Below, one piece after another: positions 19,499 through 21,856 of a DNA stretch of 64,000 bases. The notes below the pieces were generated by a model. It saw only the letters and a list, made by a program, of their open reading frames with translations. It searched no databases and was not told the origin of the DNA. The translations under genes and the position numbers were made by a program. Each line of letters begins with the position of its first letter. Positions within the stretch are counted from its first letter, which is position 1. Source of the stretch: Hymenobacter nivis (GTDB lineage: Bacteria > Bacteroidota > Bacteroidia > Cytophagales > Hymenobacteraceae); the NCBI RefSeq assembly GCF_003149515.1, contig NZ_CP029145.1, positions 2,542,001 through 2,606,000 on the forward strand, read 5' to 3'.

Positions 19499-19582
19499 AT
19501 TATTTGATTGTCATCTAATTAATAAAGCTAGTTCGGAAGAGTGTGCTAAGCTACTGCCCGTGGGCGAGGCGTAGTTTTGGAC

Positions 19583-20086
19583 ATGGATTATCTGACCCTT
19601 CGGGAGCGGCCTCGGCAGTTGTTAGCCCTGACCAGTCTGCGGCCGGCCGAGTTTGACGACTTGTTGACCGACTTCGCCCCAGCCTGGGAGTGCCACCACC
19701 ATTACCACACCCTGGAGGGGGCCAAACGGGCATTCCCCGCCCACCAGGAGCGGGCCAATGCCGTGCTGGCGGGCAGCGACACGAAGCTCTTTTTTCTGCT
19801 CACCTACCTCAAAAGCAACGCCTTGCAGCAGCACCAGGCCGCCAGCTTCGGCATTTCGCAAGCCCGCGTCAGCCAGTTGGCCACCGCCCTGCTGGGCGTA
19901 CTCAACCACGTGCTGGCCCGGCGCGGGCTGTTGCCTGTGCGCGACGGCGGCGGGTTAGCCCAGCGCCTGGCTAACCACCCGGAGCCGGTCTTTGCCTACG
20001 ACGGGGTCGAGCGGGGCGTACCACGCAACTGCGACCGCGAGGCGCAAGCCGAGGCATACAGCGCTAAAAAAAAGCGCACCGCGTGA
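19583..20086 (+). CDS. IS5-like transposase, upstream frame (HTH plus first catalytic Asp)
   Basis: 167 aa from ATG 19583 to a TGA at 20084. It contains a helix-turn-helix of the DDE_4-associated type (LTYLKSNALQQHQAASFGIS, SQARVSQLATAL) and the first catalytic region VFAYDGVERGVPR. The frame ends just after YSAKKK, which in this family continues as KKKxHxVKN. That continuation is found in the -1 frame, and the switch point holds A8 containing A AAA AAG (20066-20074), a classic slippery heptamer. Confidence 0.85.
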   Translation: MDYLTLRERPRQLLALTSLRPAEFDDLLTDFAPAWECHHHYHTLEGAKRAFPAHQERANAVLAGSDTKLFFLLTYLKSNALQQHQAASFGISQARVSQLATALLGVLNHVLARRGLLPVRDGGGLAQRLANHPEPVFAYDGVERGVPRNCDREAQAEAYSAKKKRTA

Positions 20087-20502
20087 AAAACATGACCTTG
20101 TGCGATTCCACGCAGTACGTGCATTTTCTCTCCGCCACGGAAAATGGGCGGGTACATGACAAAAAATTGGCCGACGAGTACGCCTTGTACTTGCCGGCGG
20201 GCTGCGTGTTGCGGCAGGATTTGGGGCTGCTGGGCCACGCCCCAGCCGGGGTCACGGTGGGGATGCCGCACAAAAAGCCGCCAAAACGGGAACTGACGTT
20301 TTCGCAAAAGATTTATAATCAGCTGCTGAGTCCGTTGCGAATCGTTATCGAACACGCCCACCGTGGCATCAAACGCTTGCACATGGTGCAGGGTACGCTG
20401 CGGTTGCGGGGCGAATGGATGCGCTATACAGTGATGGTCGTGGCCTGTGGCCTGCACAACCTGCGCGTCCGCAGCCCGCATCGGGCCTTCTCGCACCCGT
20501 AA
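20068..20502 (+). CDS. IS5-like transposase, downstream frame (DDE domain, -1 frame)
   Basis: This frame reads KKAHRVKNMTLCD immediately after the slippery run, then ENGRVHDKKLADE (second Asp), LPAGCVLRQDLG and RIVIEHAHRGIKR (catalytic Glu), the usual C-terminal layout of IS5-group DDE enzymes. A GTG at 20083 overlaps the upstream stop (GTGA), so it could also be translated alone. The fused product would be about 306 aa, normal for the group. It appears intact, so the element may be active. Confidence 0.85.
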   Translation, partial: KKAHRVKNMTLCDSTQYVHFLSATENGRVHDKKLADEYALYLPAGCVLRQDLGLLGHAPAGVTVGMPHKKPPKRELTFSQKIYNQLLSPLRIVIEHAHRGIKRLHMVQGTLRLRGEWMRYTVMVVACGLHNLRVRSPHRAFSHP

Positions 20503-20638
20503 AATTCGCCAACCACTCCGAATAAGCTCTAAAGTAAAAGGACAAAAAGAAACGTGCGGGTCAGGCACGGATGCAGCGGCCGGCGGACCAGGAAATTTCG
20601 TTTGCGGGCTCAGAGCGGTTTCCGAGCAACTGTATTTA

Positions 20639-20695
20639 GTTAAAAGTGAAGAGTTAAAAAACAGTCTAAAAGGGTTTTAACTCTTCACTTTTAAC
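20639..20695. repeat. Perfect 21-bp inverted repeat (GTTAAAAGTGAAGAG family)
   Basis: Arms at 20639-20659 and 20675-20695 are exact complements with a 15-nt spacer. A near copy is at 47201-47270. The hairpin lies between the IS and a convergent gene. Confidence 0.8.
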
Positions 20696-20758
20696 TCGCT
20701 TAGAACACGTACATTAACTGAAAAACAGCTTTGGGCCAGGGCCCCAGGCGACGACCTG

Positions 20759-21055
20759 CTAGTCGGGGCGCAACAGCTTCTCCAGAACCTCCAAATGCTG
20801 CTGGAAGGCGGCGCGGCCCTCGGCGGTGGCGGTGTAGGTAGTGTTGGGCTTCTTGCCGATGAACTGCTTGCTGATCAGCACGTAGCCCGCTTTTTCGAGG
20901 GCCGCTACGTGGCTGGCGAGGTTGCCGTCGGTGAGACCGAGCACTTCTTTTAAGTCGTTGAAGCTCACGGCATCGGTGGCCAGGAGCACGGCCATAACGC
21001 CCAGCCGCACGCGGTGGTCAAACGCTTTGTTGAGGGTGTGGATGAGGTGCTTCAC
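20759..21055 (-). CDS. Winged-helix transcriptional regulator (MarR/HTH_34-like)
   Basis: 98 aa from GTG 21055. Helices LNKAFDHRVRLGVMAVL, VSFNDLKEVLGLTDGNLASHV-type recognition segment (in FNDLKEVLGLTDGNL and ASHVAALEKAGY) and the wing ISKQFIGKKPNTTYTAT fit the one-domain winged-helix group that in Bacteroidota often sits next to a membrane protein. The GTG overlaps a TGA (GTGA at 21055-21052), so translation is probably coupled to the preceding cistron. Likely a repressor of its own operon; this is inferred. Confidence 0.85.
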   Translation of the reverse strand: MKHLIHTLNKAFDHRVRLGVMAVLLATDAVSFNDLKEVLGLTDGNLASHVAALEKAGYVLISKQFIGKKPNTTYTATAEGRAAFQQHLEVLEKLLRPD

Positions 21056-21230
21056 CGGCCCAATACGGATGCGGCGGGGGCCCCGGCAGGGCCGGCGGGC
21101 CACTCGTAGCGCTGGTACATCCGCAGGCCGTAGCCGATGAGGTGCTTCACCGGCCCAATACGGATGCGGCGGGGGCCCCGGCAGGGCCGGCGGGCCACTC
21201 GTAGCGCTGGTACATCCGCAGGCCGTAGCC
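21041..21230. repeat. Perfect 95-bp tandem duplication
   Basis: The 95 bp at 21041-21135 are repeated exactly at 21136-21230. The unit covers the junction of two overlapping minus-strand genes: the last 27 codons of the membrane protein and the first 5 codons of the regulator. Confidence 0.95.
21052..21150 (-). CDS. 32-codon hybrid relay ORF made by the duplication
   Basis: GTG at 21150 overlaps the stop of the membrane gene (GTGA), reads VKHLI (regulator N-terminus) and then GYGLRMYQRYEW and on to ASVLGR (membrane-protein C-terminus), and ends at TGA 21054-21052, which again overlaps the GTG of the true regulator. Because the unit is 95 bp (one short of 32 codons) the coupling geometry is preserved at both ends. 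Whether the peptide has a role is unknown; it may just pass ribosomes on. Confidence 0.5.
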   Translation of the reverse strand: MKHLIGYGLRMYQRYEWPAGPAGAPAASVLGR

Positions 21231-21827
21231 GATGTGGCCCAGCCCGATGCCCAGCCCGAAAAACACCACGCCCCAGCCCGGCAGCAGCATAGCTACCAGC
21301 CCCAGCCCAAGCTGCCTGAGCCCCAGCCAGCGGATTTCATCAAAGGTGTACTTGCTGGCGTTCAGCAGCGCCAAGCCGTAGAACACGAGCAGGCCGGGCA
21401 CCACCAGGCCCGCGTCGCCGCCCAGGTACAGGCGCAGGCAAAACAGCCCGCCCGCCCCCAGCGGCAGGGCCAGCGCCACCAGCAACCGCCGCGTCAGGCT
21501 GTTCCACAGCGGCTGGCCGGGGCCCTGCCGCTGCGTGAAGAACCAGGCCACGAGCAGCGCTGCCGCTACCATCGCGGCCGCCAGCAGCAGCAGAAACGAC
21601 AGCGCCGCCTGCCGCTCTTCGGCAGTGCTCGCCAGCAGGTGCTGGTAGCCGCTGGCGCCGTACTCGCTGGGATAGTAGGCCTGCAAGTAGAAATGGCCAG
21701 CCGCCGTGCCCAGCAGCGCCACCACGCCCGCCCCCACCCCGCTCAGGCCGGAGAGCGATAAAAAGCGCAAGCTGCGCTCCATGATGGCGCGGATTTCGGT
21801 GAGCTGGACAAGAGAGTAGGTCTGCAT
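21147..21827 (-). CDS. Membrane protein partner of the winged-helix regulator
   Basis: 226 aa from ATG 21827 (an ATG at 21851 would add 8 residues but lies inside the -7 box). N-terminal helix MQTYSLVQLTEIRAIMERSLRF is cytoplasmic; five to six hydrophobic spans follow (about 30-50, 78-100, 115-135, 140-157, 172-198). The run ERSLRFLSLSGLSGVGAG is seen in Bacteroidota membrane proteins paired with one-domain winged-helix regulators. Function unknown. The duplicated 95 bp contain its 3' end; the copy used here is the one at 21136-21230. Confidence 0.75.
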   Translation of the reverse strand: MQTYSLVQLTEIRAIMERSLRFLSLSGLSGVGAGVVALLGTAAGHFYLQAYYPSEYGASGYQHLLASTAEERQAALSFLLLLAAAMVAAALLVAWFFTQRQGPGQPLWNSLTRRLLVALALPLGAGGLFCLRLYLGGDAGLVVPGLLVFYGLALLNASKYTFDEIRWLGLRQLGLGLVAMLLPGWGVVFFGLGIGLGHIGYGLRMYQRYEWPAGPAGAPAASVLGR

Positions 21828-21848: not shown

Positions 21849-21856
21849 CAAAGCTA
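21849..21856 (-). promoter_or_regulatory. -7 element for the membrane protein/regulator operon
   Basis: TAGCTTTG on the minus strand matches TAnnTTTG and leaves a leader of about 16 nt before ATG 21827. No -33 TTG at the usual distance. Confidence 0.5.

Follow-up and report, generated by a model that had tools for sequence, protein, structure and literature searches.

A 95-bp tandem duplication across a stop/start overlap in Hymenobacter nivis and the mini-ORF it places between two genes

Sequence and layout of the duplication

The junction between a predicted membrane-protein gene and an HTH_34 regulator gene of Hymenobacter nivis carries a perfect tandem duplication of 95 bp, so placed that a 32-codon open reading frame (ORF) lies between the two genes. 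Read along the minus strand, the membrane gene comes first, then the mini-ORF and then the regulator, and both junctions are 4-nt GTGA stop/start overlaps (Table 1). All coordinates refer to the window, the stretch of 64,000 nucleotides that was analyzed. Taking the evidence as a whole, we consider it likely that this is a recent, lineage-specific slippage duplication that fell on a gene overlap, that the new ORF can relay ribosomes by reinitiation, and that the present state, with a peptide that probably does nothing, is probably close to neutral.

The initial annotation had described a tandem duplication of a 95-bp unit, one base short of 32 codons, with an ORF starting in the stop of one gene and stopping in the start of the next. 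Both parts of this description are borne out. The copies adjoin, are 95 nt each and are 100% identical, and on the minus strand the geometry is exact, with the mini-ORF beginning inside the stop codon of the membrane gene and ending inside the start codon of the regulator.

Table 1. Features at and near the duplicated junction (window coordinates)
Feature	Position	Strand	Details
Predicted membrane-protein gene	21147..21827	-	ATG 21827-21825, stop TGA 21149-21147; from the ORF list
First copy of the 95-bp unit (transcription order)	21136..21230	-	Membrane-gene 3' end, GTGA overlap and first regulator codons; 100% identity to second copy
Second copy of the 95-bp unit	21041..21135	-	Holds the GTGA overlap in which the regulator starts
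GATG, 4-bp extension of the period	21231..21234		Same as bases 1-4 of the unit; period-95 identity spans 21041-21234
Relay mini-ORF	21052..21150	-	GTG start 21150-21148, 32 codons, TGA stop 21054-21052; peptide VKHLIGYGLRMYQRYEWPAGPAGAPAASVLGR
Winged-helix regulator gene, HTH_34 (PF13601)	20759..21055	-	GTG start 21055-21053, 98 aa; Pfam E 1.6e-29
Perfect 22-bp inverted repeat, terminator-like	20638..20696		Downstream of the regulator, between regulator and transposase; z -7.6

The upstream gene is predicted to encode a membrane protein from its hydrophobic stretches, and it has no family match in Pfam or NCBIfam. An initial search of the genus matched it in 101 of 101 genomes, that of H. nivis included, and homology to the closest relatives begins at the methionine of the listed ATG. 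The regulator scores 102.3 bits against the HTH_34 profile, for which the curated cut-off is 27, and its homologs align starting at the GTG codon given in Table 1. We rejected a longer regulator start at GTG 21103 and a mini-ORF start at GTG 21198, because this codon arises from a TGG specific to the window, and the closest relatives read CGG at that place. The gene pair occurs in the same order in other Bacteroidota as well, and one Saprospiraceae bin has an ATGA overlap.

The repeat is not due to chance. In a base-rate sample of 464 kb from the same genome, comprising 20 stretches and the window, it is the sole perfect tandem duplication with a period above 24 bp, indicating that such events are uncommon in this genome.

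Origin and age of the duplication

The unit plainly derives from the local gene ends. It opens with GATG, and GATG comes again right after its end, which provides 4-bp microhomology at a distance of 95 bp. Slippage between two such tetranucleotides yields exactly the observed product, and replication slippage between them is the most likely way in which the 95 bp came to be duplicated. The event would then have fallen on the conserved 4-nt overlap between the membrane gene and the regulator. A mobile element or dispersed repeat is ruled out by the confinement of the unit to this locus: a 190-bp query matches only itself and one further segment of the genome (46 nt, 83%), and a 19-mer pattern has exact matches in the two copies only, with near matches at control level.

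We read the same junction in 97 other genomes of the genus. The two genes overlap by 4 nt in 52 of them and are separated by spacers of 15-217 nt in the other 45 (15-42 nt in 11 genomes, 67-217 nt in 34), while none of the 97 has a tandem duplication at this junction. In the four closest relatives (G052, G093, G103 and G105, the last of which matches H. coccineus) there is one copy and a single GTGA overlap, and so a duplication common to the relatives was discarded. At the level of species, the copy number is two here and one in every other species that has the overlap.

The 95-bp unit is 86-94% identical to its counterparts in those four relatives, with a 3-base gap. Both copies carry the changes specific to the window, and the duplication therefore arose after those changes. 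Furthermore, the alignment of the window with G052 contains 72 mismatches over about 990 bases; two copies that dated back to that split should by now differ at approximately 7 positions. The absence of any difference between the copies indicates an event much younger than the split, unless the copies have been homogenized. These sequence comparisons point to a recent duplication confined to this lineage; an assembly error is the less likely alternative.

If the assembly were at fault, the true sequence would be single-copy, as it is in every relative, and the identity of the copies would also be explained. However, the genome is a single 5.03-Mb contig that is 99.98% complete, and the extra copy is placed precisely at a GATG-GATG slippage site. 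Assembly errors collapse short tandem repeats more often than they expand them, which is a further point against this explanation, and we regard it as unlikely.

Frame arithmetic, coupling and comparable repeats

To see what the ORF itself signifies, it is useful to consider the outcomes open to any duplication at such a junction. We simulated all duplications of 20-200 bp that span the overlap, starting from the one-copy sequence. A relay ORF that stops in the GTGA of the regulator resulted in 6515 of 6527 cases when the length was 2 mod 3. With lengths of 0 mod 3 the regulator was extended at its N-terminus in 6376 of 6390 cases, and lengths of 1 mod 3 mostly led to an out-of-frame overrun of the regulator start. 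In the 2 mod 3 class the extra copy is open because it is read first in the frame of the regulator and then in that of the membrane gene, both of which are already open. A length of 95 falls in this class, and the frame therefore stays open through the extra copy, all the way between the two GTGA overlaps. Both proteins remain intact because a duplication that spans the junction always leaves the full end of the first gene and the full start of the second. The general rule is that a tandem duplication across a 4-nt overlap spares both proteins, and that one length class in three retains the coupling geometry by way of a relay ORF.

Because the ORF is automatic for this length class, its prior is about 1 in 3 and it cannot serve as evidence of design or selection. 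The relay cistron proposed in the initial annotation is exact in its frames, but its ORF follows from the length alone. Nor is the idea new: the MIRUs of mycobacteria bring in ORFs with -4 nt coupling (PMC12548453), and their copy number varies (PMC2413405).

Other bacteria, and archaea too, are known to pass ribosomes on at -4 nt overlaps (PMC10666635), which makes a relay at this locus plausible. In E. coli and Haloferax, coupling is strong at overlaps and almost abolished at a distance of about 20 nt (PMC10666635). Ribosomes that end translation of the membrane gene would begin again on the 32-codon ORF and, once through it, a second time on the regulator, by termination-reinitiation at each overlap. 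A gap of 94 nt that lacked the relay ORF would be expected to break coupling; with the ORF in place, coupling could persist with some loss. Regulator output may consequently be unchanged or somewhat lowered, the latter because two hand-overs would be needed.

The folding of the regulator start region (-20 to +20) offers an additional indication. Its predicted energy is -7.9 kcal/mol in the window, as compared to medians of -6.0 in the overlap class and -1.3 in the class with spacers longer than 60 nt, and the difference between the two classes (p 7e-11) is indicative only, since the species are related and kinship is uncorrected. This pattern is consistent with regulator starts that rely on arriving ribosomes where the genes overlap, and that have an open start region of their own where they do not. 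Because the regulator GTG of H. nivis sits in structured RNA like that of the overlap class, coupled translation is plausible here. The start codon is GTG in 49 of the 52 overlapping pairs and TTG in 31 of the 34 pairs with spacers longer than 60 nt. Two other structural candidates were rejected: the extra copy does not alter the RNA fold within 60 nt upstream, where the sequence is identical, and changes it by 0.7 kcal/mol in a longer window, and the 95-bp unit has no special hairpin beyond what its composition gives (z 0.0).

The long spacers of some relatives show that the gene pair tolerates the loss of coupling, and the relay may therefore be of no consequence. Taken by itself, the locus most likely represents a young mutation without effect on fitness.

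The nearest known counterparts are the MIRUs of mycobacteria, which according to a 2025 review appear to insert at start codons, with the unit ORF coupled to the gene at -4 nt, and which are likely to have little effect on gene expression (PMC12548453). Intercistronic MIRU units of senX3-regX3 measure 77 and 53 bp (PMC4213456), and their copy number differs among strains, from 2 to 5 (PMC2413405). Our repeat shares several of these characteristics. It is a short repeat in tandem copies at a gene junction, its unit ORF stands at -4 nt to the next gene (a spacing read from the sequence), and its 95 bp, like 77 and 53 bp, is 2 mod 3. In contrast, MIRUs are dispersed over many loci and appear to be mobile, whereas the 95-bp unit is found at one locus, in an unrelated phylum, and arose by a single duplication of sequence already present at the junction. 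The duplication would function like a MIRU but is not one, as it is not dispersed and is built from local sequence. Junction-spanning duplications of 2 mod 3 length could explain in a simple way how MIRUs and similar repeats originate.

Two other arrangements are also comparable. Like gene pairs that overlap by 4 nt and use termination-reinitiation, the locus has GTGA at both junctions, and the overlap is kept in about half of the genus genomes; it differs in having two successive overlaps with a 32-codon intermediate. Like short upstream ORFs and those of bicistronic designs, the mini-ORF is a short frame whose role may be only to deliver ribosomes (PMC12548453), but it sits between two genes and is made of copied gene ends. 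Bacteroidota do without Shine-Dalgarno use (PMC6847099). With its two overlaps, the locus is a naturally occurring construct on which serial reinitiation could be measured in such a phylum.

Alternatively, the repeat might be a functional tuner, in which copies are gained and lost, the output of the regulator being lowered or altered with every further relay ORF. A perfect tandem repeat of 95 bp is expected to be unstable. There are precedents in M. tuberculosis, where the length of a tandem repeat upstream of fpg1 correlated with expression (PMC2734929), and in the range of copy numbers, cited above, of the senX3-regX3 repeat (PMC2413405). However, we have one genome with two copies and saw no variation, and the duplication is absent in every relative checked, which makes a tuner improbable. 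We would assign the same low probability to a broader proposal, namely that outside mycobacteria 2 mod 3 junction duplications insert relay ORFs into operons spontaneously and reversibly, that the output of the downstream regulator is set by how many copies there are, and that this locus shows such a repeat at the very beginning of its existence. It is highly improbable that a new and useful small protein, a hybrid of regulator N-terminus and membrane-protein tail, is made from the mini-ORF: the frame is open and starts and stops at coupled positions, but its openness is automatic, its product has no family match in Pfam or NCBIfam, and it is too recent for a test of selection.

Neighboring features

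A transposase at window 19577-20502 on the plus strand is split over two frames, HTH_Tnp_4 followed by DDE_Tnp_4, which likewise meet in a GTGA overlap. Eight consecutive A residues just upstream suggest frameshifting or coupling.

Upstream of the membrane gene, TAGCTTTG at window 21849-21856 on the minus strand fits TAnnTTTG, the consensus of the Bacteroidetes -7 element. Close relatives have nearly the same motif (TAACTTTG or TAGCTTTG) ahead of the gene. An inverted repeat in this region, ATACTC-N13-GAGTAT, was set aside as an operator candidate, being absent from the closest relatives.

In many other Hymenobacter genomes this junction has opened to 67-217 nt (for example L021, L042, L054 and L061), and these spacers often read as long inverted repeats. 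In H. coccineus (L033, 1922-1949), the membrane gene is flanked by inverted repeats, since the junction segment GCCCCCGCCGCATCCGTATTGGGCCGG recurs immediately ahead of it as an inverted near-copy (26/27 nt).
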